From contig JAGPYM010000011.1 of assembly GCA_020736575.1 (NCBI GenBank), forward strand, positions 248,001 through 312,000: a DNA stretch of 64,000 bases. Direction: 5' to 3'. The notes beneath the pieces are model-generated. The model saw nothing but the letters and a program-made list of their open reading frames with translations. It was not told the origin of the DNA and ran no database searches. This DNA comes from Thelonectria olida (lineage: Eukaryota > Ascomycota > Sordariomycetes > Hypocreales > Nectriaceae). Positions 4,057-56,700 of this stretch are shown here, piece after piece (the stretch's first letter is position 1; every line of letters begins with the position of its first letter). A program made the translations under genes and the position numbers.

Positions 4057-5787
4057 ATGAACGCAAAGCAAGGCTGCTGGACCTGCAAACGTAGGAACCC
4101 ATCCCAACCCCTTTCCACCTGTTGCCCCTCCTCCCCTCCCTCCCTACCCTGGTGTAAATACATACCAGCTGACACTCTCCCAGAACGTAAAATCCGCTGT
4201 GACAAGGCTCTCCCTCATTGCGACAACTGTCTGCGCACGAACAGAGAGTGTCAAGGATACGGCATCCGTCTCGTATGGCCCGATAGTCCCGATGGCCGAC
4301 GATCCAAGGCCGATGTCTTTGCCGCGAGCTCGTCGGATGATGAGAGGCAGCTCACATCTTGGAACGGCCATGTCCAGTTCCTTAACTTTACGTTGGGAGA
4401 CTTGAGAAATCGGAAACTGTTTCGACCGGCAGCGAGAAAATGTCTCTCCAGCCCGCAGCCGGCCTTGACTCTACACCCCGTCGTGGGCCAAGATGCGCTG
4501 CTCCTGAGTTACTGTACACCTCCCCCTTCTTATACCCGCCTACGCTTTACACGAGGACATATGCAATCTGACAAGCAACCGCCACAGACGAAAGCAACAT
4601 CGCAACCATGATCTCAACCACCAACGCCCAAAACGGCTTCCGCAACGACCTCCTCCCCATGGCCCTCGCCACACCCCCAGACCCGGCCGCCTCGGCCCTG
4701 TGCAACGCCATGCTCGCCGTCGCCGCGCACCACACCCTCGGCTCCGCCGCCGCGCTGCCGTACAAGGCCCGGGCCGTCAGCCACCTGTCCCGCGCGCTCG
4801 GAGCAGGCTCGGAGGAGGCCACGGAGATCCAGATGGCGGCGTCCATGATGCTCTGCGTGTACAGCGTGCGTCTGCCCACTCGCAGGAAGAAGAATGACAT
4901 GGCTAAATTAGACGCAGGTGTTTGACGAGGCCGAGGGGAACTGGAACGTCCACCTCGACGGCACGAAGCGCATGTTCCGGCGGAAGAAGCGCGTCGACTC
5001 CGAGTTTGTGCTCACGTGGTTCTTGTACCATGAAGTCTTGGGGTGTTTTACGCGGCCGTCGAGGCTACAAGACGATGAGACGGATATGCTGAGCTACGTG
5101 GAGGCATCCATCCAGGATCCTACTCTCGTCAGCTCTCCCCGTCACATATTCCCTTTGAGTAGTTACTAACCCGGCATCTAGATCATCGGATCCCTCGGCT
5201 GCTCCCTAGAAACAATATCCATCATCCACAAGATCAACAAGATGCGCCTTCACCACTCCACCCCCAAAACCGCTACTCCTACCACAACCGCACTCACCCA
5301 CCCCTCCCCAAAAGCCTCCAAGCAACGCCTCCTCCTCGAAACCCAACTCGCCAACCTCACGCAGATCCTCCCGCCCCTCGAAAGACACAACCACCTCCGC
5401 ACCCTCGCCATCGCAGAGCTCTACCGCCTGGCCGCCATCCTGTACCTCCAGCGCATCTGCCCCAGCACACCTGACGACGCCCCCCGGCGAGCCCTGTACC
5501 TCAAGAAAGCCTTTGAGCTGTTCAGCTTGCTGCAAGTGGCGACGAGCCCGTGGCCCGTGTTTGTCGTGGCGTGCGAGAGCGCGCCGTCGGACGAGGACCG
5601 GATGGCCATCTTGGGAGTGCTGGACCGCATGGATGAAGTGCGAGGGATCGGCAACGTGCGCGTCATGAGGGGACTTGTCGAGTCGTTTTGGAAGCAGTTT
5701 GATCTTGGACAAGTGGCCGAAGGGGCTTGGGCGAGTTGGTGGGATGATGATGGGGATGCTGCGGTTGCTGAGCCGTGGTTTATATGA
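4057..5787 (+). CDS. Zn(II)2Cys6 transcription factor, fungal_trans_2 type
   Basis: Five exons (4057-4090, 4184-4513, 4588-4865, 4918-5127, 5182-5787) give 485 residues; all junction phases agree. The zinc cluster lies at the extreme N-terminus with cysteines 7, 10, 17, 24, 27 and 34 (CX2CX6CX6CX2CX6C), interrupted by an intron after CWTCK as is common in this subfamily. The segment LLSYYESNIATMIST, produced only by splicing out 4514-4587, and the following ALATP...HH stretch match the fungal_trans_2 (DUF3468-type) middle region. The intron at 5128-5181 has a GTCAGC donor, weaker than the others, but a clear ACTAAC branch point. Nuclear regulator with unknown targets. It is unrelated in sequence to the preceding regulator, so this is not a tandem duplicate. 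Confidence 0.88.
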
Positions 5788-6137
5788 GGTGTGTAGTGTA
5801 ATGAACCCGTGAACCTGCTGGCTTTGGGGAACGGGTATAAAGATATCTTCTAATTAATGTTTTTTTTTTTGTCGGGGAACCTTCTATTCTAAAGTGACAA
5901 GCTAAAAACCTAATACTATTACTCCTAACCTCATTTTTAGCCTCACCCCTAGAAGGGAAGAGAGAGCAAAGCGCGACATTTCGGCTGCGATAAACAAATT
6001 GCCCATCAGCTGGCTAAAGAATAAGGTCGTGCGGAAGTAGATGTCGCCAGCTTAGGAAGGAGTGGACTTAAATGCTATATATAGGGTGGTGCCAGGCTTT
6101 TAAACCGTTATAGTACCAATGTCGCCTATTATGATCA
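5788..6137. other. Convergent 3' intergenic region
   Basis: About 350 bp between converging genes, with a T tract near 5861-5871. I see no gene or clear terminator beyond ordinary AT-rich 3' sequence. Confidence 0.5.
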
Positions 6138-7793
6138 TTACTCTTGCTGATCATCAGAATCATCATCTTCTTCTTCCCCATCCCTTCTCTTCCTAAAACG
6201 TCCTGGTCGAGGGTTGGCGTTTTTGGCCAGCAGGTTCCTAGTAACGTCCAACTTCCAGATCGACGGCCCAAGATCCGTCTCCGACCGTCGATTCGCCTCG
6301 ACCCACGTCCGCATCTGACCACGCACTTCCTTGTTGCTAGTAAGAGTTACTATCTTGGCTGCCCACCCGTAGACAAAAATGGACAGCTTGGCACTCTTGA
6401 AACCGCTGCATTCGACTACATCCAAGGCCATTTCGGGCAATACGCCTTTCGACACGGCTTCCTCGATGGAGGGTTTGTCCCAAGGTTCGGGAGCAATGTC
6501 AAGAGGAAGCTGCACGTCCTCGGGTAGAGGGTGAATGGATAGTTGCTGGAAACGTTCCCGAATGGCCTCTTTCGACATGCTTTGGTCGTCGGGGAGTAAT
6601 AATGCCCCCCTTTCACGCTCTGTCTCCGTACCCACCGCCTCAAGCACCCTGTGGAAGTGGTCTGCGGCTTCCATTGTGCAGATGAGCTTCCTTCCGGCCA
6701 GTAAGGGATACAACTTCGCAGCCATTATACCTCCCGGCTGAAGATTCTCCTGTTCAATCTGCGAGCGTGTCGACTGAGCTTGCCAAGGCTGGGGTTGCAG
6801 ACTCGCGTGTGTCAAATCTGAGATCATGTCGATGAGGATTGTATGATCTAGGTTAAGCGTTTGAGTAAGGTGCTCGAGCTCACCGCCGACCAAGTTGGCC
6901 AAGGCAGTCTGCAGGGGTGGAGGTGGTGTGGACATGAAAACGCCGTCTTGATACTCGATCGTGACCTGAACTAAAGGGTCCAAGTGCTTCAGTTGGTCGA
7001 TAAAGATGTCCAGCTCATCGTTTCCATGACAGAGATTGGACAACACAAGCCTAATCCTTGGGAAATGATACTCATGTCGATTCAGCTTGGCCGCTGCAAC
7101 CAGTCGTTTAGCAAACTTGGCCAAGGGCACGTCATCCCACTCATCCTCATCAACTCGGTCACCCAGTTCGTGATCACCCCAGGCCCAGCCGCAATCGCCC
7201 AGTTCACGAGCCAGGCGGTCTCGATGAACGGCCTTGACAGCGAGCCACTCTCTTCCCAAGTCGACAACATCCACTTCCACACGTCCCTGTTCTTTGAGGA
7301 GCCGGTGGGCCGTTTGCTTATCGCGGCCCGAAATGTCGCGCTTTATCATCTCTTCCCTTCTACCGTTGCGCGATGATCCTTGAAAGTTTTTGTTGACGCT
7401 GACCAACCCACAACATCGCTTGAGTCGATCCCATTGCGCGACAGAGCGACTCACGACATTAACACTAGCCTCTAATCGTCGGTTGTGTTGTTTCAGGGTT
7501 TCTTCGGGGCGGATGGCATCTTCGGTTGCAATTCTGGCGATGAGGTCGACCGTGTCTTTCTCACGCTGCAGAACGCGGAGAAAGGTGGGCAAGCCGGTAG
7601 ACTGAAGAGGCGAGGCCTTCGTCTTTACCCGATCTGCGAGGGCCGTGACTTCTTGTATGCAAACATGGGCGAGATGTGAGTTTTCTTGAGCTGACTGAAG
7701 CATCCGAGGTTGAAGGCTGGATGGGTCGTCGTCGGGGTCTGGTGTGTTAATTGTCGTCATTGTAGTCGAGGAAGTGCTGAAATTATGGGGCAA
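6138..7793 (-). CDS. DUF1308 (UPF0415/C7orf25-like) protein
   Basis: An intronless 551-residue frame. The C-terminal half resembles the DUF1308 domain of animal C7orf25-type proteins. Matching segments are KLICTMEAADHFHRVL, the following GTETERERGALLL, and KLSIFVYGWAAKIVTLTSN, which keep the order and spacing remembered for the family. The last about 35 residues are charged and end in an acidic run. An ATG at residue 12 is an alternative start. The biochemical role of the family is not established; a PIN-like nuclease fold has been suggested, and I cannot verify catalytic residues. It diverges from the ASA1 gene. Confidence 0.8.
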   Translation of the reverse strand: MPHNFSTSSTTMTTINTPDPDDDPSSLQPRMLQSAQENSHLAHVCIQEVTALADRVKTKASPLQSTGLPTFLRVLQREKDTVDLIARIATEDAIRPEETLKQHNRRLEASVNVVSRSVAQWDRLKRCCGLVSVNKNFQGSSRNGRREEMIKRDISGRDKQTAHRLLKEQGRVEVDVVDLGREWLAVKAVHRDRLARELGDCGWAWGDHELGDRVDEDEWDDVPLAKFAKRLVAAAKLNRHEYHFPRIRLVLSNLCHGNDELDIFIDQLKHLDPLVQVTIEYQDGVFMSTPPPPLQTALANLVGGELEHLTQTLNLDHTILIDMISDLTHASLQPQPWQAQSTRSQIEQENLQPGGIMAAKLYPLLAGRKLICTMEAADHFHRVLEAVGTETERERGALLLPDDQSMSKEAIRERFQQLSIHPLPEDVQLPLDIAPEPWDKPSIEEAVSKGVLPEMALDVVECSGFKSAKLSIFVYGWAAKIVTLTSNKEVRGQMRTWVEANRRSETDLGPSIWKLDVTRNLLAKNANPRPGRFRKRRDGEEEDDDSDDQQE

Positions 7794-8982
7794 AACTGTG
7801 TTTTCTTGCTCTTGTGTATACCAGAAACTCGCACTTGATAGTAGACAGCTTATTCAATCGTCGTTGAGGAAGCCCAGGACGAGTCAACTCCCAGCAGTCC
7901 TTTGAGGGGTTTTAACTTGGCCAGGAAACAAGGACGTTGAATCTGGCCAAGTCTGGAATGTTCCTCGCTTATCAACGACTGACCCGGAACTCTTGCAAGT
8001 GCATTCGTTTGATCAGGCTGACGACGAGAGAACTAGGCACACTGTTCAAACTTTTCGTCTGTAGTGAGTGATACGTGTTCGGTCACGCGATCTGCCTTGC
8101 TGCAACTTGACAACTCAGCCCTCTTGCTGTCGGCGGAAGGGCGTGTAAAAGGCGCCCAATTCTCAAAGTGACAGTGAAATGCCAACTTTTGCCGAATAGC
8201 GCTGCTTGCTGATTTATTTCAATGTGGGCAATTTTGGCCCTGATGATGAAGAAGCCAAGTTTGCACAGTGCACAGCCAGCCAGTTTGCACGCCCCCATAC
8301 TGTAGCTCTGGTCCTTCCCTTTAACCAACTTGCACCGTCGACCGAACCTTTCTGTTGACCTCTCCTCGGTAGGTACGGGTCGGTAGGTACATTGCTATAA
8401 AAAGGCCTTTTAAATTTATTCAGCCTGGAAGTTATGAGCTCAGTACCTACCTTATTGCTTTTACTGCCTGAGTTTTCTCAGTGGCTCTTAGGCAGTCCTC
8501 TAAAAGCTACATACAGTGCCAACCCACAGGTTGAGACTTGGACTTCACGGTAGCGCATCCTTCTTCAGTAATCTTGTACTATATATAGGCGATTCCTTGT
8601 GATTTTATTTCGGATTTATTAAAACTTCCTTTTCTCGACTCTTTTGTAAAGTCAGAACAGAAGTCAACCTGTTCAACTTGGGTTGTCGTTGACGCTAATC
8701 GAGATTAGTCATCCTCCATCTGAAGGCTTCCACCGCAAAGGAATACTTCGTATAGCAAGCAGCCTTCAACGAAACAACCGTTCATGTTGTCTTCAAACCA
8801 GTCTGCCCGAATAACCCTCGGAACATCGAACAATCCAAAGGGGAAAAGCACCACCTTTTGTATTACAAGGAGTGAAAGTATGATCTTGCCGCAAAGACGG
8901 CTCTTGTTTTCCCCCATCCAGCCCTGATTCCTAAAAATTGGTAGGTCCCTACCTAAACAACGGGCCCATCATCACCATCAAA
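7794..8982. promoter_or_regulatory. Divergent promoter region with GTAGGTA repeats
   Basis: About 1.2 kb between divergent starts. It contains several short GGTAGGTAC / GTACCTACC copies (around 8370-8395, 8445 and 8938), a motif scattered through other gaps of this window. I found no supported gene or RNA. Confidence 0.5.
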
Positions 8983-10443
8983 ATGTCCGACTCCGTGCCA
9001 TCACCAAAGTCCATTCTCCGTGGCCACAAAGCACAAGTTCATTCCGCAACATTCATCAGAGACAACAGTCGCCTGCTTACAGGCGATGCCGACGGATATG
9101 TCGTCCTCTGGGACTTGACTATCATGAGGCCCCAGGCTGTTTGGCGCGCCCACGAAAATGCCATCCTAGGAGTGCGAGGTTGGGGAAACGACAAGATCAT
9201 AACGTGAGTACACGCATAAATGGCCGTCTTCACTCAGCATTGACCCGGCTTTGCATAGTCATGGACGTGACAACAAACTGATTGTCTGGAAGCTCGGCCA
9301 AGAAGATGAGGCCAGTCTCAGCAAGGTCCTACCGGTTGAACATGTTCCAGAACCGCGTGCTCAGCCATGGATTCTGCACCTCCTCGAGGTGAATACAATG
9401 AACTTTTGTGCCTTTTCCGCTTGCTCCAGCAGTCCCGAGGTCATGGACAACGCATCCAAAATCCTCATTGCAGTGCCCAACACGCTCCAATCCGAAGCTG
9501 TACGAATCATACCCCTGAGATATTCTTCTCAAAGCTAAACATTTCAAAGATCGACATATACTCGCTCCCTGACCAAAATCGCATACACACTATTAGACCA
9601 GGGACAAAAAACGGCATGGCCATGTGTCTTTCCCTCCTTCACTACAAAGATGCGCTGACGCTCATCGCTACATTCGAGAATGGCTACGCATCAGTTCACC
9701 GGCTTGACCCAGATAGTAACTGGATTACCACATATCGCTCCCAAGCTCACTCGCAACCGATTCTATCGCTAGATGTCGACCCCGAGCGCCGTTTCTTTCT
9801 CACATCCTCGGCAGATTCTCTCATCGCCAAACACCCCATTCCCACCGATCGTCAAGAGATCATCTCGGTGCCAGCAAGCAACGCAAGGGTTGTTGAGATT
9901 GAAGAAGATGAGGAAGATCCGCCAAAACCACAATCGCTCTTATCAGCGGCACTGAAATCTTCATCTACTTCAAGCCGCCCAGCCACGTCACCGGCGTTGC
10001 AGGAGTGGAAGGACCCCCTGAAAGTGATCAATACCAAACATTCTGGCCAGCAAAGTCTCAGGATACGGTCTGACGGCCGGATTTTTGCCACAGCGGGCTG
10101 GGATTCCAAAGTAAGGGTATACTCGGCCAAGACCATGAAGGAGCTTGCGGTGCTCAAGTGGCATCAGGTCGGATGCTATGCCGTAGCATTCTCAGACCTC
10201 ACCGCCTCAAGCGCCCTCTCTGAATCCGAATCCGAACCCCATCCGACCCAGACCCAGGATACTACTCCCTCAGATCCTTCCCAGTCGTCTGAGCGTCCAC
10301 AAGCGGTTATATCCGGAGACGCCAGAACATTGGTCAAGACGACGACAAGTGTCAAGGATCGGCGTATCGCTCAGGCAAAATCGACTCACTGGTTAGCGGC
10401 GGGTGCCAAGGATGGAAAGATCAGCTTATGGGACATCTACTGA
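8983..10443 (+). CDS. ASA1: ASTRA-associated WD40 protein Asa1
   Basis: Three exons (8983-9203, 9259-9499, 9550-10443) give 451 residues. The start is the ATG in AAAATGTCC. WD40 repeats are visible throughout: the N-terminal [13 protein letters not shown]...[15 protein letters not shown] repeat, [12 protein letters not shown], and the C-terminal [21 protein letters not shown] and [13 protein letters not shown]. Excising intron 9500-9549 joins LQSEA to [11 protein letters not shown], which restores the blade. A Ser/Thr/Pro-rich insertion lies between the last two repeats. Asa1 is a subunit of the ASTRA complex, which works with Tel2-Tti1-Tti2 in the maturation of PIKK kinases. The stop directly after WDIY agrees with a repeat that closes the propeller. 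Confidence 0.88.
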
Positions 10444-44129: not shown

Positions 44130-45881
44130 ATGGGTTCCGACGAGGAGAAGGCGCCCAAGTTCGATAGCGCCATCAGCCCCGATATCGTGGGCGATGCCGA
44201 CAATGTGGATGGTCTCCAGCGTCGCCTCGATAACAGACAGATCCAGTTGGTCGCCATTGGTGGCTCCATCGGTACAGCTCTCTTTGTCAGTATCGGTGGT
44301 GGTCTCGCCAAGGGAGGCCCTGCCAGTTTGTTCCTTGCCTACACGATCTACTCTTGTATCCTCGCTCTCGTCAACAATGGTGTCGCCGAGATGAACACCC
44401 ACATGCCCGTCTCGGGTGGCTTCATCCGTCTCGCTGGCCACTGGGTTGACGATGCTCTCGGTTTCGCTGCTGGTTGGAACTTCTTCTTCTACGAAGCTAT
44501 CCTGATTCCCTTCGAGATCACAGCTCTGAACCTGGTCCTCTCGTACTGGAACGAGAAGGTCACAGACCCAGGCCCAACAGCTGGCATTTGCGCCGCCGTC
44601 ATTATTTGCTACGCGTAAGTACCTGAGCCATAGGAACAGAGTCCGCCTCGTGGGATTTGCTCCTTTTCCTCCCGTAAAGTTGTCGCATGCTAAACTCGTC
44701 CGTGTGATTGTAGTCTCCTCAATGTTTTGGCTGTCCGCGCCTACGGTGAGGCCGAATTCTGGCTCTCTGGAGGCAAGGTCATCTTGATCTTGATCCTTTT
44801 CTGCTTCACCTTCATCACCATGGTTGGCGGCAACCCCCAAAAGGACCCCTACGGCTTCCGCCATTGGAAGAACCCCCCGGGTGCTTTCGCTGAATGGCAT
44901 ACAACTGGCGACCTCGGTCGATTCGAGGGTTTCCTGGCTTGCATGTGGTCCGCTGTTTTCTGTGTCGTCGGACCCGAGTACATTTCCATGGTTGCTGCCG
45001 AGGCCAAGCGCCCCAGCATCTTCATCAAGTCGGCTTTCAAGACTGTCTACTACCGATTCTGCTTCTTCTTCATTGTCGGCGCCCTCGCCGTCGGTATTGT
45101 CGTTCCTTGGGATGACCCAGTCCTTACTGCCATCTATCGTGAGGGCACCCAGGCTGGCGGCACCGCTGCTGCTTCGCCCTACGTCATTGCCATGTCCAAC
45201 ATGAAGATTAAGGTGCTCCCGCACATCGTCAACGCACTGATGCTCACTTCCATCTTCTCGGCTGGTAACACTTACACCTACTGTGCTACCCGATCTCTCT
45301 ACTCGCTGGCTCTCGAGGGTCGTGCTCCCAGTTTCCTGCGAAAGACCACCAAGGCTGGTGTTCCCATCTACAGCTTCTGCGTCGTCATGCTGTTCCCCTT
45401 GTTGTCGTTCCTCCAGCTCAGCAACAGCTCCGCCAAGGTGCTTACTTGGCTCATCAACATTATGACTGGTGGCGGTTTGATCAACTACCTCATCATGGGC
45501 ATCACCTTCTTCAACTATTATCTCGCTACCCAAGCGCAGGGCTTTGACCGCACCAAGCTGCCATACTTTGGATATTTTCAGCCTTGGGGCTCGATCATTG
45601 CCTTCGTCTTTCAGTTCATCATGGTCATCTTTTACGGTTACAGTTCCTTTACCCCCTGGAGTGTCGAGACCTTCTTCACCAACTACACCATGCAAATCGT
45701 TACTCCATGTCTCTTCATTGGCTGGAAGCTGATTAAGCGCACGCGATGGGTGCGTCCTCATGAGGTCGACCTGGTCTGGGAGCGCCCAAGCATTGACGCC
45801 TACGAGAACACGTTCCCCAACCCTCCTGTGGGTTTCTGGACTGAGATGGCACAACTAGTGGGCCTGTGCAGAAATAAGTAG
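44130..45881 (+). CDS. Amino-acid permease (AAT/YAT family)
   Basis: Two exons (44130-44614, 44714-45881) encode 550 residues, the normal size of fungal amino-acid permeases. The N-terminus (LQRRLDNRQIQLVAIGGSIGTALFVSIGGGL) carries the family entry signature, followed by GGFIRLAGHWVDDALGFAAGWNFFFYEA, GGEF-region equivalents, FSAGNTYTYCATRSLYSLALEGRAP and a C-terminal cytoplasmic tail after VRPHEVDLVWERP. Twelve hydrophobic segments are visible. These proton symporters take up amino acids at the plasma membrane; the specificity (broad, GABA or proline) is not decided by sequence. In such permeases transcription responds to nitrogen quality through GATA factors (family knowledge), which the long upstream region could serve. 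Confidence 0.93.
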
Positions 45882-46940: not shown

Positions 46941-49900
46941 TCAATCTACATCCTTGGAGCCTTTCGCCAGTTGATAGTCGTAAACAGAAGAGTGAAAGTC
47001 TCGCTCGCCCTGCAGATACCTGGCTGCGGCATCCCTCTCCCTCTGGCTGCGCGTGCTGCCCTTGAACACCATTTGTCCCCAAGCATCCCTCTCATCGCCA
47101 TCCACGTTTGCTATATCCAAAACCAGACTAACAATCTTTGGTTTTCTAGTTATATACCCTCTCAGAGTGGTGTCATTGTCCGTGACTACCGCGTTGCCCG
47201 TGTCGAGGAGGAGCTTGACAATAGCTTCTCGACCATTCACGCACGCCAAAGACAGCGATGTGTTGCTCCCATTAGCCTTACGGTTAACGTCCACCATACC
47301 GGTTTTCAAAAGAAACTCAACCGCGTTTTCACTTGCGTTCTGCACCGCAGCATAAAGCGGTGTCCTGCCATAAATATCCGCGTAATCGATCGTGGCTTCG
47401 CTTGTGTTGAGAAGCGTCTCTAGGGCATCAACTCTATCCATTTCGGCGGCATATGAGACAGCTGTGCGGCCCTTAACGTCTATAGCATCTATTTCCAATC
47501 TTCCAGTTTCCAAGAGAAGTTTCACCATGTCACAATGACCATTCTCGGCGGCCCAGGAGAGTGCTGTTCGGTCATCATGGTCGGATGAATTCACGTTCAC
47601 TCCCCTTGTGTCCAATAGCAGCTCTACCATGGGCACATGTCCATTGCCCGCGGCCCATGAGAATGGTGTGCGGCCTCTGTAATCCGGCCTGTCCACAGCA
47701 GCATTTCCTCTTCTCAGGAGCAGCATTGCCATGGGCACGTTCCCGCCCCTGACAGCCCATAAGAAGGGGGTGCACTTTTCGTAGTCTGCGGCATTGATGT
47801 CGGCTTTGCCCGTGGTCAGAAGAAGATTAACCATGTCCTCGGTGCCGGTCTCAACGGCCCTGGAAAGAGGCGTTCTGCCAGTGTTGTCTATGACATCGAC
47901 GCTTGCTCTGCCCGTACTGAGAAGACGCCTGACTATGTCAACATGCCCCTCGACCGTGGCCCGCAGCAGAGGCGTATACTGATAGCTATCCCGCACATTG
48001 ATGTCCACCGAACACGTATCGAGGATCTCTTGCAGAATAGAATGGTTTCCCTTTCTAGCCGCCCAGGAGATGAGAGAATAATTATTAATATCCATGGCGC
48101 GGATGTCTGCCTGGCCAGTATCCAAAAGGAGCTGAACTATCGCGTCGTGTTCATGGTGAGCGGCCCGAAGAAGAGGAGTGCGACCAAATTCGTCTCTCAC
48201 GTTGATATTTGTGTGGCCACCCTTCAGGATCAACTTGATCAACATCTGATGGCCCTCCTCAGAGGCAGATAACAGCAGCTTTTCTTCAATCTTGTCTTCC
48301 GAGGACTTCGGGGTTCGCTTCTTCCGCAACAGCCGTATCACCTCCTCTTCTCCGTTCCAGACAGCATAGAGCAATGGCGTGGCCCCCATCGCGTCTTCTA
48401 TATCGACCCGGGCCCCTGCCTTGACGAGCTGTTTGATGATGGGCACGTTTCCGGCCCAGATGGCATGGATTAAGGGCGTTCGGCCGTCCTGATCCTCCAA
48501 ATTTACGTTGGCGCCTGATTTAAACGTGCGAGGGATGAACCTTAGGCCGACTTCTTTGCCTTTAAGCAAAACCTTGACAACATTGTCGAAACCGTTTCCT
48601 GCGGCCCAGGACAGTGCGGTCCTTGAGTAGGTTTTGTCTTGCGAGTCAAGTTCAGTGTCCCTCATCTTGAGCAGGTGCTTCACAATGACTTCAAGCCCAA
48701 AGTAGGACGCAGTCATCAGACTTGTAAAGATCAGAGGGAATGGGGTATTTGTGTGCGAGCACTCCCAATAAATTCTGAACCACTTCCAATGGCAGCCGGA
48801 AGTGTCGTCGCAAATTCTCAATATTGATTTCATCATTGACTTTTGGGTACCAGGGTGTAATTCGCGGAAGTGGTCGGCCCAGTGGTTGGCGGAGTATTCG
48901 ATAAAGACATGGTCTCTAATATACTTGGAGATATGTTGGGTCTCCCTAAAGAAGGTCGTCTCCAAGTCCTGGAGAAGAAGGTACCAGACGCATACCTTGG
49001 TAATGGCCAGATGTGATTCGTGAGGGTGTATGGACCATTTCCATCTCAGCTCACTAGTACTATGAGAAACGGACTTGGGAACCAAGAATTCCTTGACTGT
49101 CTGGTGGAGCAAGAATATTTTTGAGTCGATTATGGTGACCAAACCACAGATATCTCGTATCTTACCTCGAAAACGAGCCTCAGAATCAAGATCGAGGTCA
49201 TCGTAGCATCGGTGCTCCTCATCAAGAGTTAGTGCTAGAATCATCTCCTCTAAAGTGAGGGGGCGCCGTGCGGCGATGATGAGATGGAGCACCTTAGTCG
49301 CCTTTTGAGGGTCGCAGGTCTTGGATAGAATTTGGTCATAGGCTTCGTTGATTGTTTGAGGAAGCTGGGAAGTGATCTGGCGTATCTTCTTCTTGTCAAT
49401 ATCGAGGGCACGCTCGATCAAATCCAATGTAAGGTGCACCCATAGGTATGTCCGATTTGGGACCCGGCGAAGCTGTTGAAGCAGACTGTCCTCCTCGGCA
49501 CTTTTGAGGTTCTGTAGGGCCTTGATAGTCTTGACTCTCTCTCGTATAACGAGGTCAATTTCTCTGACGATCTTCTTCATCTCAACATCGCTTTCCCCAC
49601 TCAAGTGAATGACTGGTAAGTTGAGGGCGTCGAGGGGCTGGAATCCAAGGCCAATCTCTCGGTACGGTCGACTTGTGACGAGGAACTTCAGCTTGCTGCT
49701 CCTATTGGTGGTTCCGTACAATTCGCACAAGGCCTTGGAGAGCTGATTTCTCCCATTAACTTCACACTCGTCAACGGCATCGAGAAGACAGATGATTTCA
49801 TGATTGGCGTTGTCCTCGGCGACTTTGACGAGAGTCTCCCACAGCTCAACAAATGAGCTGGCGATGCGTTGCCCGCTGATGTCAAACTGGTGAAGAAGTT

Positions 49901-50516
49901 CATCAGAAAGAAGTGTGCCCTTCTGCTTGAACAGCTGGTGCAAGAGACAACAGAGGGCTTTGACAATGTTCCTCTGATCTTCAAAGTCGTCTTTGAAGAA
50001 GAAGTAACAGACCGTGCTAGTCTCTGTGCTCCTAAGGACAGAATCGACGAGGTGTTTCGTGAGAACCGACTTGCCGCAGCCTGGATCGGCCGATACCCAG
50101 AGGATCTTGGATGAGGCTTCTTCGCCTTGCCAGGTACGGAAAAGGTCGTGTGATACGAACCACTCACAGGTTCCGAGGACTGGGGCTGGATTTCGATCTT
50201 TACGATCGCGGTATAGGGAAGTATCTAGAAGCCTGAGGGTCTGATTCTCCCTTTCTTTTCGAGACTGGCCTGCTTCTTTTGCGCGAATACCACGGTCAGC
50301 ACGAATTTGCAAATTAAAGACTGGGGACGTACCCGATATAATAGCATTGGGGGAGCTGTGAATTACATTCACATTTCCATATACGGTGGCTCCGGGTAGC
50401 TGGACTCCATCTCCGGTGGAAATATTTTGCGTACCCCCATGAGCGTTGAATTGGTTCCCGGTGCGGTGGCCGCGGGGGGAAGAAGCGCTATGTGCATCTC
50501 TCCCGCGATGATCCAT
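46941..50516 (-). CDS. NACHT-ankyrin NLR with N-terminal prion-like motif
   Basis: An intronless frame. The start is taken at 50516 (MDHRGRDAHS), giving 1,191 residues and putting the motif at the N-terminus as in relatives; in-frame ATGs further up reach 50654. Residues 17-52 hold a Gly/Asn/Gln-rich motif (NQFNAHGGTQNI...GATVYGNVNV) that matches the C-terminus of the neighbouring hydrolase. The NACHT domain follows, with Walker A ADPGCGKSVLTK (Lys149, Ser150) and Walker B IICLLDAVDECE (Asp246-Glu250), then VTSRPYREI and the closing FLLHQTVKEFL. From about residue 600 to 1135 there are some 15 ankyrin repeats of about 34 residues. Fungal NLRs of this build are nonself or damage sensors that trigger regulated cell death. 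Ligand recognition by the ankyrins, oligomerisation by NACHT and amyloid templating by the motif is the family model, not shown here. Confidence 0.9.
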   Translation of the reverse strand: MDHRGRDAHSASSPRGHRTGNQFNAHGGTQNISTGDGVQLPGATVYGNVNVIHSSPNAIISGTSPVFNLQIRADRGIRAKEAGQSRKERENQTLRLLDTSLYRDRKDRNPAPVLGTCEWFVSHDLFRTWQGEEASSKILWVSADPGCGKSVLTKHLVDSVLRSTETSTVCYFFFKDDFEDQRNIVKALCCLLHQLFKQKGTLLSDELLHQFDISGQRIASSFVELWETLVKVAEDNANHEIICLLDAVDECEVNGRNQLSKALCELYGTTNRSSKLKFLVTSRPYREIGLGFQPLDALNLPVIHLSGESDVEMKKIVREIDLVIRERVKTIKALQNLKSAEEDSLLQQLRRVPNRTYLWVHLTLDLIERALDIDKKKIRQITSQLPQTINEAYDQILSKTCDPQKATKVLHLIIAARRPLTLEEMILALTLDEEHRCYDDLDLDSEARFRGKIRDICGLVTIIDSKIFLLHQTVKEFLVPKSVSHSTSELRWKWSIHPHESHLAITKVCVWYLLLQDLETTFFRETQHISKYIRDHVFIEYSANHWADHFRELHPGTQKSMMKSILRICDDTSGCHWKWFRIYWECSHTNTPFPLIFTSLMTASYFGLEVIVKHLLKMRDTELDSQDKTYSRTALSWAAGNGFDNVVKVLLKGKEVGLRFIPRTFKSGANVNLEDQDGRTPLIHAIWAGNVPIIKQLVKAGARVDIEDAMGATPLLYAVWNGEEEVIRLLRKKRTPKSSEDKIEEKLLLSASEEGHQMLIKLILKGGHTNINVRDEFGRTPLLRAAHHEHDAIVQLLLDTGQADIRAMDINNYSLISWAARKGNHSILQEILDTCSVDINVRDSYQYTPLLRATVEGHVDIVRRLLSTGRASVDVIDNTGRTPLSRAVETGTEDMVNLLLTTGKADINAADYEKCTPFLWAVRGGNVPMAMLLLRRGNAAVDRPDYRGRTPFSWAAGNGHVPMVELLLDTRGVNVNSSDHDDRTALSWAAENGHCDMVKLLLETGRLEIDAIDVKGRTAVSYAAEMDRVDALETLLNTSEATIDYADIYGRTPLYAAVQNASENAVEFLLKTGMVDVNRKANGSNTSLSLACVNGREAIVKLLLDTGNAVVTDNDTTLRGYITRKPKIVSLVLDIANVDGDERDAWGQMVFKGSTRSQRERDAAARYLQGERDFHSSVYDYQLAKGSKDVD
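50361..50468 (-). other. Sigma-type amyloid-signalling motif, NLR copy
   Basis: The segment encodes residues 17-52 of the NLR. Core pattern: QF-N-x(2)-GGTQNI-x(2)-G-x-G-x-Q-x(2)-GAT-x(2)-GN-x-N. Over the 25 residues starting at GGTQNI, 15 are identical to the hydrolase copy with no gap. It is low in charge, without predicted helix, and sits ahead of the NACHT domain, where fungal prion-forming motifs are found. Confidence 0.8.
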
Positions 50517-50994
50517 GTGGTGTGCAATCGTGTTGACCCGACTGACGAAGTGATGCTTCCTCACCACGGCCGGAATAGCCGCAAGACATGGCAAATGCGG
50601 GAACAGGCAGCTGACCCGATTGCCTCGTTCTCTTTCAGCCGTAATCGCAGCCAATGATGATCAAGTTTTAGCGCCCAGGGCCCCCGAGTGACGGCGGAGG
50701 TCAGCGAAGTGGGCGTGCGGCTGAAGATGGCGCATGGTAGGACGAGCAGTGAAGTGTAATGCAGGTATTCGCAAGGCAGTGTTTTGGGAAAAGAAGTCTG
50801 AAGAGCGTTGACGTGAAGAGATGATGCTGGAACAAAGTTCGTGCAGTCCAATTGATGCCCCTCACATGGCATGTCGCTCCTTCCACCAAACTGGGCGAGC
50901 GGTACCTGCCTGGATGCGATGGAGGGAACACGATACGATATTAAACCTAGGTACTTGCAGCTTTTAAAATCGTAATGCCTCAGGAAATACTTGG
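50517..50994 (-). promoter_or_regulatory. NLR promoter region
   Basis: About 480 bp between the hydrolase stop and the NLR start on the same strand. Part may be translated if an upstream ATG (50654) is used. No shared motif with the hydrolase promoter was found by eye. Confidence 0.4.
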
Positions 50995-52287
50995 CTAACT
51001 ACTGCCAAAATTGAGGTTCCCCGTAATGGTAGCACCAGCGAATTGCGGACCATTGCCCATGGTGATGTTCTGAGTCCCCCCAGTTGCATTGTTAGTAAAC
51101 TGCTGAGCCTGACCGGAGTTGTAGAAGTTGGCGCTGCCAGAATGCTGGCGTGGACGAGACGAATTTGTTATCGAAACCTCGTCGATTTCATGGCGAGCGG
51201 GCTTTGTCTGTGTGTCGAGTCGCTCATCACCGCTGCAACTGTTATTGGCCTTTTCGTCTTCCATTTCGACCTCTTTTTTTCCCACTGACCGTCTTGGTTG
51301 GCTTGCAGTCGCCACATTGTCGAGCTCCGCCTCCCATCTCATCAGCTCACCAAGTAATCTCTTAAACCCATTGTCGTCTTGCGAGGAAAACTTGACCATA
51401 CTCCTATGGTCTGCATGAATGCTGAAAGAGCTGTACCCGTCAAAAGTCGCCGATTCCTTGGGCACAATCTTGAATCCAGACATGGCCAACTCTTCAAAGA
51501 AACAAGTGATTGCCAGATTCCGGCCAGATTCTCGCAGCTCCCTCACCATGGACAGAAAACTCGCCTGAATCCACTCTAGACACTGATCGCTCGTATCCAG
51601 CACGTCTAGGAGCGATCTGTTCATCGATTTGAAGGGGCTAATGGCACGAGCAGGTACCTTGGCCCAACCAGCTGCCCAGGAACCCCCGTGGGGAGTTCCC
51701 ATAAAGGCGATGCCTTTTGTGCATTTGAACATGTTTTGGAGATGCGTCTCGGGATTGTTTCGCGATGTAATCAGGGCGGCCTTGCAGACAAGACCGCCGA
51801 GACTGTGCGCGACGAAGATAATCGGACGAGACGCCGCACCGCTGGACAATCTCTCGGTGGTGACATCGTTCAGCAAGTTGTTGGCGTGGTCAATCAGCCG
51901 GTTTGACGATGCCGGTTTCCTCACCACGTACGCGTCGTAGCCGTAAGTGAGAATGCGGGCTCTTGGAAGCTTGGGCGGGATGAGGGCCTTGGGCCAAGGC
52001 GTAGAGAGTCCCTTTGGGGTCCATGTTTTGTTCCGGTTGCCAGACAGGCCGTGGATGAAGCAAATATCGACTGTGGCGTCTTCGCAAGTATACCAGACTT
52101 GGACGCCATCGGGGAAGAAGGTGTCTGGTTCTTGAAGCTCGCCATGTGACGTCGGCGGGGTAGAAACGGAGATTGAAACTTCCTGCTTCTTCCTGCGGCT
52201 CGAAAGGTCTTTAAAGATTCTCATTTTGAGGAGGATTGTCTCAGGAAGTTCCGAGGGAGAACCACCCAAAGACTCTCTCATAGCCAC
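50995..52287 (-). CDS. SesB-like alpha/beta hydrolase with C-terminal prion-like motif
   Basis: An intronless 430-residue protein starting at 52287 (MAMRESL). Residues 60-320 form a serine esterase/lipase-type alpha/beta hydrolase of the DUF676/PGAP1-like kind: DICFIHGLSGNRNKTW (oxyanion loop, 75-90), the nucleophile elbow VAHSLGGLV (Ser162), GIAFMGTPHGGSWA and SIHADHRSM with the probable catalytic His294. A charged, disordered linker (residues 325-385) leads to the C-terminal motif at 387-428 (QQFTNNATGGTQNI...GATITGNLNFG). This is the layout of SesB-type effectors, where the motif lets an activated NLR recruit and switch on the enzyme. Substrate is probably a lipid or ester (inference). It lies 478 bp upstream of the NLR on the same strand. 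Confidence 0.9.
   Translation of the reverse strand: MAMRESLGGSPSELPETILLKMRIFKDLSSRRKKQEVSISVSTPPTSHGELQEPDTFFPDGVQVWYTCEDATVDICFIHGLSGNRNKTWTPKGLSTPWPKALIPPKLPRARILTYGYDAYVVRKPASSNRLIDHANNLLNDVTTERLSSGAASRPIIFVAHSLGGLVCKAALITSRNNPETHLQNMFKCTKGIAFMGTPHGGSWAAGWAKVPARAISPFKSMNRSLLDVLDTSDQCLEWIQASFLSMVRELRESGRNLAITCFFEELAMSGFKIVPKESATFDGYSSFSIHADHRSMVKFSSQDDNGFKRLLGELMRWEAELDNVATASQPRRSVGKKEVEMEDEKANNSCSGDERLDTQTKPARHEIDEVSITNSSRPRQHSGSANFYNSGQAQQFTNNATGGTQNITMGNGPQFAGATITGNLNFGSS
51004..51129 (-). other. Sigma-type amyloid-signalling motif, effector copy
   Basis: The segment encodes residues 387-428 of the hydrolase. It is Gly/Asn/Gln/Thr-rich, almost uncharged, and has repeated aromatic-containing NF/QF steps (NFYN, QQFT, PQFA, LNFG) as expected for stacked beta-arches. 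It matches the NLR copy without gaps across the core. It ends two residues before the stop. Confidence 0.8.
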
Positions 52288-52598: not shown

Positions 52599-52697
52599 GG
52601 TACTATGGCCGAGTTGGTTATGGCGCCAGGTTAAGGTCAACCTTAACAACCATTCCTGGTGGAGCAATCCTCTTGGGTTCGAATCCCAATGGTATCA
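52599..52697 (+). tRNA. tRNA-Leu(AAG) with 17-nt intron
   Basis: A complete cloverleaf can be drawn. The acceptor stem is GGTACTA with TGGTATC and discriminator A at 52697. A GCC/GGC-type D arm with GGTTATGG loop follows. The anticodon stem is CCAGG/CCTGG with loop TTAAGG-T, then a long leucine-type variable arm and the T arm TTGGG-TTCGAAT-CCCAA. The anticodon AAG is at 52633-52635 (reads CUU and, with inosine, CUC). The intron at 52637-52653, one base after the anticodon, contains CCTTAA, which pairs with the anticodon-loop TTAAGG as usual for pre-tRNA introns. Internal A and B boxes are present. Confidence 0.93.
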
Positions 52698-52718: not shown

Positions 52719-53744
52719 GCATTTGTTTCTCTTCTTTATTTTTACATTTCGACGCCGTGGTGTCGTGGTTCTGTTTCGCAGAGATTTAGAGAGTTTCGGT
52801 CCGGATGTGAACCGCGGTACGTACTGCGTGCAACCAGTGAATATGGCCCGTGCATGTGCGCCAGCGCATTGCAGCCATGGGGAAAACACAGACCGAAGAG
52901 CGGTTTCAATTACAATCGAAACAGGTCGCCAAAAATAGGAGAATGGAACTCTGGTCGATCGAGGCGGGTATTTTGAGTCCTTGCTCTGGAGTTGGGGGCG
53001 TCTTCCGGGCTGTGACAGGCTCAATACGCCATGCAAATAAATCTCCACAACCTAGCTTCTCTCTGTTGGGTTCGCTGTCAGAGATGAAGCTCTATCAAAT
53101 AATTTCTATGTGTTTGTCAGCCCAAAGTCCCAAACTCGGGCTGGATTTTGCCAGAAAGAGCGCCAAAGGGGTTTACCCTGTACTTATGCACAAGCTTCCA
53201 TCCTGAATGGTTTTTGTTTTCAGTCATCGAAGACCACAGAGTATGCCTGATGGGAATGGATCTGATGGGTGTCTTGGTATGGTTGTCATATCTTTCATAT
53301 TTACTACCAATAACTCCTCGGAAGCAATACAGAACATTGAGCAAGTTCACTATCACTTGGCAACCCCAAAGACGACATATGTAAACGCGGAACAGAGAAT
53401 GGTCCTCTATCTTGAGTCGGTTAATGCACACGCATCGGAGCAAGATTGATCTTAATCAAAGTCTATTTTGGCTCTATCTATTGCAGCCTCCAAATTCCAC
53501 CCGAAGCCAAAGAGTTTTAGCACATCTAGGATCCTCCAATCCTAAACACATCCTAGCCCCTAATTCTCCAGGTGGCAGTCTAACAGAGCGGCCCAAATCT
53601 ACCGGGAGCCCCTAGGTGTGCTGTCCATCCATTACTAAAAGACGCACCCTGAACTTTTTTGATCAAACGCAGACAAAGGAAACATGGTATGAGGTCATAA
53701 GAAGAAGTGGTTGTCGTTAACGTAGTCGTGTGAGAATGAGCCGC
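52719..53744. other. Intergenic region, tRNA to eEF3 3' end
   Basis: About 1 kb. Short frames on both strands lack any recognised domain. It includes the 3' untranslated region of the eEF3 gene. Nothing else seen. Confidence 0.45.
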
Positions 53745-56700
53745 TTAGAAGTCGTCCTCATCGCTGAAAACCTCTTCACCACGCTTGCGGCGGGCCATAC
53801 GCTCTGTGAAATGGTTAGCTTCTGCTTTGTGTCATCTGTCGAATGGTTTGACTTACCCTTCTTCTTCTTACGGGCCTCGGAAGAGGTGAGCTTCTTCGCC
53901 TTCTTGGTGGAAACAATCTTGTTACCCATGGCGTCGAACTTGTCCTCCTCACCATCGTCGTCCTGCTTGAGACGAGGACCAGCACCCTGGCCCTGGACCC
54001 AGTTGTGGCCGGAAGGAGTCATCTTGCCGTCCATGACAGCCCAGACCTCCTCAGTCAAGTCCTTGGTGAACTCAGCAGAGTGGGTAATGATGATGACACC
54101 ACCCTCGAACTTCTTCAGAGCCTTGGAGAGGGCACCGAGAGAGTCACGGTCGAGATAGTTGGTGGGCTCGTCAAGAACGATCAAGTGAGGTCGCTGCCAT
54201 GAGCAGGCGGCAAGGACAGTCTTGACACGCTGACCACCGGACAGACCACGCATGCGGGAGTGAGAGACAAGCTCGGCATCGAGACCGAAGTTGGCGGCGT
54301 GAGCCTCAATCTCCTTTCGGACCAGAGGACGGAACTGACCAGAGGCGAGAGCCTCCTTCATATCAACATCGGCAACCATCTTCTGGTGAGAGGCCAGAAG
54401 CTCGTTACGGGGCAACCAGGCGTTGTCGGCAGTCATCATGGGGACCCAGCGCTCGTTCTTCATGCCAATGTTCTCACCCAGAGCGAACGAGCACTCGTAC
54501 TCGTAGCTGTTCTTGAACTTTCTTCGGCTGTGGATGCCAATGACACGACGGGGAGTGCCCTCAACCTTGAAGACCTTGTCCATGGCCTTCTCATCGGCCT
54601 CGGTGATGATCTTGTTGGCACGGTCCATGGTCTCACGATCCTCACCAGTCTGGAATCGCCACTGGATGTACTCGGAAGGAGTCTTGTCCAAGTGGTTATC
54701 GATGTGGGCGAAAGCGTGCTGCTTGATGTAGGCGATACGGATGTTCTCGTGCTGGTAAATCTCACCACCAGTGGGGATGAGCTCACCGCAGAGGACGTTG
54801 ATCAGAGTGGACTTGCCAGCACCGTTGGGACCAATGACGGCAATACGGGAACCGAGAGAGCACTGGAAGCTGATGTCGGTAACCTGGGGCTTGGAGGTAC
54901 CGGGGTACTGGAAGGACATCTTGGTGGCACGCAGGATTGCCTTGGCCTTGGTCTTGACACCCTCGAGGAAACCGGGCTCGGGGAAAGAGAACTCCATCTC
55001 GGAGGCACCGAGCTCGTAGTAGGACTTGGCAGAGGGAACACGCTGGACAAAGGCAGCCAGGTTACCACGGTAGCGCTTAAGCTTGAAGCGCTCGTAGTGA
55101 ACAATGTGCTGGCAGACATTGTCGAGGAAGCCAGAGTCGTGAGAGACGATGATGGAAGTGCAAGGAGAGTTGATCAGGTACTCTTCGAGCCACTTGACGT
55201 TCTTCACATCCAAATGGTTGGTAGGCTCATCGAGCAACAGGATATCGGGTGCCTCGAAGACGGCACGGCACAGGGCCAGCTTCATCTTCCAACCACCGGA
55301 AAGGGCGGTGATCTCACCCTGAACCATCTGCTCAGTGAAACCGAAGTCGATAAGCTGCTTCTCGACATCAGGCTTGGTAGCACCAACGCCAGCCTCGGTA
55401 AGCTTCTTCATGGTCCAGTCAATGGTAGTCATCTCAGTATCAGCGGCATCAAGGTCGTGCTCGACGAAGACAGTCTTGACCTCGCTCTGCTTGGGGAAAC
55501 CCTCAACCTGCTCGTTGTTGATGGCACGCATGAGGGTGGACTTGCCGGAACCGTTGGGACCGCAAAGACCGTAGCGCTGACCACGCTTGAGACGGAGGTG
55601 AGTCTGGTTGAGCAGAATCTTGGCACCGTAGGCAAGAGAGAAGGTACAGTTGCAAAGATCCTCACCCTCCTCATCGTCCTCCTCGGCCTCAGCGGCGACA
55701 GCGTCGGCGGGAAGGGCGGTCCTGCGGAAAGCCTCGACAATGGCCTCGGAGTTGTCGATTCCAGTGATAACGGCGACGTAGGGCTTGAGGTTCTCAACCC
55801 AGATGCTGACCTCAGTCTCCTTCTCGTCGATGAGCTCACCGGCAATGGCGGCGATGTACTCAGCAACGGGGCCCATCTTCTCAAGGTAGTTACCGAACTT
55901 GGGCTTGATGGCGGCCTCGACCTTGGGGAGGAGGACGTTGAGAGCACTGTCGTTCTTGGGCTCGGGGATGACACCGTTCTTGATGTCACCGACACGGGTG
56001 AGGGTGTCAAGAGCCTGCTTGGTCTTCTCACGAGCCTCGGGGTCAGCCAAGTTCTCGTAGTTCTTCGTGAGACCTGGCATCATCTTGGGCAAGAAAGGAG
56101 CAACGATGTTGGGGTCGTCGACGAGCTTGCACATGTTGTCGACAATGACGGCAGCCTTTCGCTTGATACCAGTCTCACGGTCAGCGAGACCACGGTCAAG
56201 AAGAGGAACCATGAGAGCAAGGGTGGGCTCCTGGACCTCAGTGACGAAAGTGGTGGCACCGAGCAAGTGAACAGTCTCGGCGACGTTCTCGGGCTTGGCA
56301 ATACACTTGATAAGCTCAGGAATGAAGCGCTCGATATCCTTGTTGACAATCAGACCACAGAGCTTCTCCATGGTCTTGTAGGCACGCTCCTTGACCTCCT
56401 TCTTGGTATCCCACATGGAGTCGGAGATGACGGGAATCAAGTCGGGAACACGGAAGGCGAGCTGAGCAGGAGTGGTCTGGATGAGAGTCTCGATGAAGTC
56501 GAGAGCAGCCATCTTTTCAGGCCACTTCTGGGCGTTGCGGATAGACTCCATGATGTGAGGAAGAGCAGCCTTGACGGCGTTGGCGTTGATGGCGCCAGCA
56601 ATGGCAAGGACGGCAGAGTTGGCGGCATTCTTGACAGCGGTGATCTTGTCACCAACGGCGTTGAGGACGTTGGGGAGGAGAACAACCAGGTAGGGCTCGA

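Follow-up and report, generated by a model that had tools for sequence, protein, structure and literature searches.

Gene organization of the locus

We analysed a 64,000-nucleotide stretch of the genome of Thelonectria olida (family Nectriaceae), referred to below as the window (contig JAGPYM010000011.1, positions 248,001 to 312,000; the contig, C13, has 1,198,821 bases in a genome of 52.5 Mb), and concentrated on two adjacent genes encoding an alpha/beta hydrolase and a NACHT-ankyrin NOD-like receptor (NLR). An earlier note, made from the DNA letters, had described them as same-strand neighbours with one short motif at the hydrolase C terminus and the NLR N terminus. In the list of open reading frames (ORFs) both frames are open and lie head to tail on the minus strand, with the effector gene 478 bp from the gene for the receptor, a signal-transduction ATPase with numerous domains (STAND). 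The features, in window positions, are as follows.

50995..52224, minus strand: effector gene for the SesB-type alpha/beta hydrolase, with its start (ATG, 52224) taken from the deposited protein and the stop at 50995.
50995-52287, minus strand: mechanical ORF of the hydrolase, 430 residues, with a mechanical GTG start.
51004..51129, minus strand: sigma motif at the hydrolase C terminus (ORF residues 387-428; frame-wise scan, G000:C13:299004-299132).
50517..50994, no strand: intergenic stretch of 478 bp from the hydrolase stop to the NLR ATG.
46941..50516, minus strand: receptor gene for the NACHT-ankyrin NLR, read from its first ATG (50516) to the stop (46941).
46941-50654, minus strand: mechanical ORF of the NLR, 1237 residues, with a mechanical TTG start.
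50367..50462, minus strand: sigma motif at the NLR N terminus (ORF residues 65-96; G000:C13:298367-298462).
50275..50335, limits approximate, minus strand: inferred 57-nucleotide GT-AG intron of the NLR gene between sigma and NACHT, from comparison with P0121.

The shared sigma motif

The two termini share an ungapped core of 25 residues with 15 identities (hydrolase ORF residues 403-427, NLR ORF residues 73-97), exactly as the earlier note had counted. The best local alignment of the two terminal regions scores 90, against 44 for the best match between the two proteins with the motif regions excluded, and none of 5000 shuffles that keep composition scored as well (mean 28.0, standard deviation 5.3, maximum 60). 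The GxGxQF and GGTQN units that define the sigma class in Daskalov et al. 2012 (PMC3321046) are visible by eye in both copies. The Pfam model NACHT_sigma (PF17106, cut-off 27.6 bits) scores 43.2 bits on the NLR and 30.5 bits on the hydrolase tail in a frame-wise scan of the 52.5 Mb, and it is also among the precomputed matches of the deposited hydrolase, P0001. By this model the effector carries a C-terminal sigma motif, by a narrow margin. The scan returned 15 places at E ≤ 10, nine of them above the cut-off, and the window pair accounts for two of the nine. The assignment to the sigma class thus holds, and two models of other amyloid motifs do not match at the locus: the PP class was rejected with PF17046 (Ses_B; two weak matches in the genome, none above cut-off, none on C13), as was the HET-s or HRAM class for the window locus with PF11558 (14 matches in the genome, six above cut-off, none on C13). 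A search of PDB sequences with the sigma tail gave two matches, the better at E 1.3.

Within the motif, the last ten-residue block sets the window pair apart. Phe occupies position 4 in all but three of 61 SesB tails (58) and in all but one of 11 NLRs (10); the window SesB has Ile there and the window NLR has Val. Asn at position 7 is found in 3 of the 61 tails and 1 of the 11 NLRs, and Asn at position 9 in 3 and 4, respectively, both window partners being among them in each case. These columns were selected for emphasis after viewing the alignment, the 61 tails (P0001 included) are those of 118 ranked tails in which the block is readable, with 57 dropped, and the 11 NLRs were hand-picked from search listings. 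The rare substitutions common to the pair suggest that the two motifs changed in parallel and not at random. In the alignment of hydrolases, the window SesB motif also has two additional residues inserted into its first unit.

The hydrolase

The effector is encoded by B0T10DRAFT_48441 (deposited protein P0001). It matches DUF676 at 21.8 bits (cut-off 20.3) and shares 51% identity over 90% with the SesB encoded at the original sigma locus (Q6PX79, P0059); by sequence it is a SesB relative, as had been proposed. S141 of P0001 (in AHSLGG), H140, H270 and H273 are invariant in 25 aligned hydrolases. The Ser and His of a SesB-type hydrolase are therefore kept as judged by alignment, which offers either H270 or H273 as the catalytic His. 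The deposited model also omits a 57-nucleotide stretch upstream of sigma, which we treat as a putative intron on the word of that model. A protein search with the hydrolase returned 908 proteins, the best 120 of which were considered; 72 of these carry PF17106 by hand count. The NCBIfam scan of the hydrolase gave no family, and the PDB sequence search gave a single weak match, to EDS1 (E 0.2).

The receptor

The NLR is composed of an N-terminal sigma motif, a NACHT-like NTPase domain with a P-loop, and ankyrin repeats, in agreement with the receptor type first proposed. The Pfam scores are 136.8 bits for NPHP3_N and 286.1 bits for Ank_2, besides the sigma match; the PF05729 NACHT model scores 20.7 bits, below its cut-off of 26.7. 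The P-loop DPGCGKSVL is invariant in nine aligned sigma NLRs. No Pfam domain was found N-terminal of sigma at E ≤ 0.1, leaving a STAND protein without an effector domain of its own. NCBIfam returned nine families on the NLR, all far below their cut-offs and driven by the repeats. The ankyrin repeats have diverged and form no array of near-identical units: the best self-identity over 99 residues is 45%, against 78% for the NLR of a second cassette described below.

A protein from a contig of 5291 bases, P0121, agrees with the window NLR at every compared residue (1188 of 1188) but is 19 residues shorter immediately after sigma. The corresponding 57 nucleotides fit a GT...AG intron that keeps the frame and contains no stop. 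P0121 begins with Met at a position that reads as Val (GTG) in the window, which is the start that a gene caller of prokaryote type would choose. From this start and the missing residues we infer that the P0121 contig probably lacks the 57 nucleotides and is probably transcript-derived. A spliced NLR transcript with a 57-nucleotide intron just behind sigma is thus probable, and an unnoticed 5' intron has been reported for het-eN as well (PMC3321046).

Adjacency in relatives

The same pair is found under consecutive locus tags, on equal-sized contigs, in three Fusarium species among the listed proteins (SesB/NLR tags FDECE_9789/9790, NW762_013723/013722 and ACHAPJ_009031/009030; proteins P0018/P0124, P0034/P0136 and P0045/P0210). 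In the NLR search, 15 proteins among the best 120 carry PF17106 (from Fusarium, Cladorrhinum and others), and a profile search adds three sigma NLRs (P0244, P0246 and P0263). Two Monosporascus genes, DL764_008237 and DL764_008235, are two tags apart; DL764_008235 has no PF17106 match. Six predicted Fusarium proteins (P0125, P0126, P0127, P0140, P0143 and P0246) carry a SesB domain followed by a window-type NLR in one chain, in some of them with the NLR motif missing or cut. Since F. fujikuroi also has an entry for nearly the same NLR that lacks the SesB part (P0142), these chains are probably merged gene models, and possibly real fusions; either would indicate head-to-tail adjacency.

Other sigma-like cassettes in the genome

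Two further cassettes were found. At 46.4-52.1 kb of contig C81, two SesA genes whose tails match sigma (37.3 and 38.0 bits) lie beside a NACHT-ankyrin NLR whose own motif sits on a separate 5' frame and scores 17.5 bits, below the PF17106 cut-off. Its ankyrin array has 16.6 near-identical copies of a 102-bp unit (locus L035, G000:C81:42500-52400, positions 7930-9637). A splice model for this NLR, sought from a list of donor words, gave no solution. A reverse-transcriptase-bearing element adjoins the cassette.

The second lies on contig C100 (2.529-2.535 Mb):

L042 (G000:C100:2525000-2534900), positions 4408-9634: divergent sigma-like cassette of RGDQ type, two SesA genes and an NB-ARC-TPR NLR.

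The two SesA tails are divergent (17.6 and 14.3 bits, below cut-off). A similar stretch, missed by the Pfam scan, lies on a candidate 5' exon of the NLR that would join the NB-ARC frame across a 62-nucleotide GTAAGT...TAG intron. It scores 58 and 69 against the two SesA tails, with none of 5000 shuffles as good in either case (maxima 49 and 55), and we read it as a sigma variant.

Relics are also present. Four places on C81 and C82 (L036, L037, L038 and L040) carry a SesA-tail fragment with a canonical sigma motif and share duplicated stretches of 0.5-5.7 kb at 92.6-99.6% identity, and a lone sigma tail lies on C95. In the genome scans, no hydrolase-domain match outside the window adjoins another sigma place.

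Motifs and partners agree by cassette. Among the intact cassettes of the genome, all three NLR motifs have their highest scores against effectors from their own cassette, and of the six possible assignments of NLR motifs to cassettes the true one comes first (255; next, 181). The SesA tails are grouped by cassette (0.52 and 0.42 within, 0.22 to 0.28 between); the SesA domains are not (C81_SesA1 to C100_SesA1, 0.29; C81_SesA1 to C81_SesA2, 0.20; the two C100 domains, 0.10). For these comparisons, and for the pairings across species below, the motif windows were cut by hand. Of 14 NLRs, hand-picked in the same way as the 11 above, the window SesB scores highest with its own.

Proposed interpretation as a signalling cassette

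The two genes with their domains, the shared motif, the adjacency in relatives, the conserved Ser and His and the probable NLR transcript underlie our reading of the locus as a two-gene sigma-class amyloid-signalling cassette, which we consider likely. By analogy with the families and relatives concerned, the ankyrin end of the NLR would bind a ligand, upon which the NACHT domain would oligomerise. The N-terminal sigma motifs clustered in this way are predicted to fold into an amyloid seed, and this seed would template an identical fold in the sigma tail of the SesB effector. Once active, the hydrolase, with lipids as its probable substrate, would bring about cell death or growth arrest. A tail peptide of the Nectria SesB, whose letters are those of P0059 349-385, aggregates and binds Congo red (PMC8086366), and fibrils of a het-eN peptide are cited as unpublished (PMC3321046).

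Several observations weigh against this reading. PF17106 scores 26.9 bits on the whole hydrolase ORF, just below its cut-off. A sigma-like peptide from Coleophoma fails to aggregate (PMC8086366), and the loss of the usual Phe from both window motifs could weaken an amyloid fold. The remaining points concern the pairing. Across the SesB-NLR loci of six species, 115 of 720 pairings score at least as high as the true one (itself included), as do 4 of 24 after thinning of the set; co-variation of the motifs across species is thus not significant. Two of the six pairs come from fused gene models (P0143 and P0126); P0125 and P0250 were excluded, their NLR motifs looking cut by the gene model. The two similarity tables correlate at 0.95, which is what shared phylogeny alone would give, and the Fusarium decemcellulare NLR scores higher with SesB tails of other species than with its own. 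The window NLR motif places its own SesB 30th, tied with three others, among 118 SesB tails (those of the 120 listed proteins under 470 residues), and it scores 95 against a relic SesA tail of the same genome and 90 against its own SesB. Co-variation, which the earlier note had named as a check, therefore gives a mixed picture: it shows by cassette within the genome and in the rare substitutions common to the pair, and across the loci of the six species it does not rise above chance. The pairing of effector and receptor itself, proposed from their adjacency and common motif, is supported.

From the rank of 30th, the relic SesA score and the cross-species test it follows that the window pair is not demonstrably exclusive. 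These same results favour an alternative in which amyloid templating is kept and sigma acts as a promiscuous adapter: the NLR may activate SesA proteins of other cassettes as well, and the SesB may answer other sigma NLRs. The Nectria s locus, where one NLR controls two effectors (PMC5485727), offers a precedent. We nevertheless think such promiscuity rather unlikely, given that all three NLR motifs prefer their own effectors among the intact cassettes, that the SesB in turn places its own NLR first, and that the pair has rare substitutions in common.

It is improbable that the motif is instead a docking or linker element without prion-like templating, or that the pair is heading for loss. The missing near-invariant Phe, the insertion in the first SesB unit and the sigma relics elsewhere in the genome would suit such an explanation, but both frames are open, the catalytic and P-loop residues are kept, a transcript is probable and the two motifs change in parallel. 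Chance resemblance of two low-complexity termini, which a short motif rich in G, N, Q and T might invite, is refuted by the shuffles, by the match of the curated Pfam sigma model to both termini and by the adjacency kept in three Fusarium species.

Beyond the two-gene cassette itself, we tentatively raise the possibility that three or more sigma channels operate in this one genome, insulated from one another: SesB with NACHT-ankyrin in the window, two SesA with NACHT-ankyrin on C81, and two SesA with NB-ARC-TPR and a divergent sigma below the Pfam cut-off on C100. Effector tails and receptor motif would have drifted together in each channel and apart from those of the other channels, and the loss of the same near-invariant aromatic residue from both window partners may help to prevent cross-seeding.

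Relation to known systems

As in the Nectria haematococca s locus (sesA/sesB/het-eN, with the sigma infectious element; PMC3321046), a SesB-type hydrolase with a C-terminal sigma adjoins a NACHT-ankyrin STAND protein with an N-terminal sigma, and the receptor gene has a 5' intron, a probable one in the window pair. Unlike that locus, the window cassette has no SesA match and its sigma variant lacks the usual Phe. The Fusarium pairs comprise the same two protein types, there under consecutive locus tags, at 50-53% identity for SesB and 51-56% for the NLR region, whereas their motifs are of NNTG and QF-LG/FG flavour. Chaetomium globosum HELLP/SBP/PNT1 likewise places a putative lipase under NLR control through an amyloid motif, but with a PP (RHIM-like) motif and two effectors (PMC5485727). 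In Podospora anserina het-S/nwd2 an adjacent NLR templates an effector acting in trans, as proposed here for T. olida; that system differs in its HET-s motif, pore-forming HeLo effector and WD repeats (PMC3321046, PMC4344463).

The earlier suggestion of a possibly undescribed two-gene form, with ankyrin repeats as sensor, does not hold. HET-eN, the founding sigma receptor, was reported with ankyrin repeats by Daskalov et al. 2012, loci without sesA or sesB are already published (both PMC3321046), and Dyrka et al. 2014 (PMC4986451) name NACHT-ANK and NB-ARC-TPR among STAND proteins with prion-like motifs. The architecture is already described, and the T. olida pair is a further case in another species. 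Its addition to a described family changes little. In the parts of the sigma literature covered by our search, which was not exhaustive, Thelonectria is not mentioned (PMC8086366 included). Nor did we meet there a genome with three sigma-like cassettes, or a form of sigma that lacks the aromatic residue, points at which no search was aimed.

The set of cassettes amounts to a natural experiment: with three sigma-like cassettes, two of which share an NLR type, a single genome provides matched and mismatched motif pairs that are useful for asking how amyloid signals stay insulated within one cytoplasm. To this set the window pair contributes a sigma motif that lacks the aromatic residue normally present, and a receptor whose ankyrin repeats have diverged and which can be compared with the C81 receptor and its high-identity array.

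Neighbouring features and the wider repertoire

A third effector in the window cassette was ruled out as far as sigma and SesA scans reach, with no further sigma match within the window at E ≤ 10 and no SesA match at E ≤ 1; other effector families were not searched. A tRNA gene lies just upstream of the hydrolase gene, at 52599-52697 on the plus strand (Rfam tRNA, 44.2 bits); ARAGORN, which reported no tRNA genes, missed it. The neighbouring frames, judged from reading their ORF translations alone, resemble translation elongation factor 3 (53717-56551, minus strand) and an amino-acid permease (44727-45881, plus strand). Genome-wide, the 14 matches to HET-s-type motifs (six above cut-off) and at least 151 NPHP3_N matches point to a large NLR repertoire in T. 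olida.

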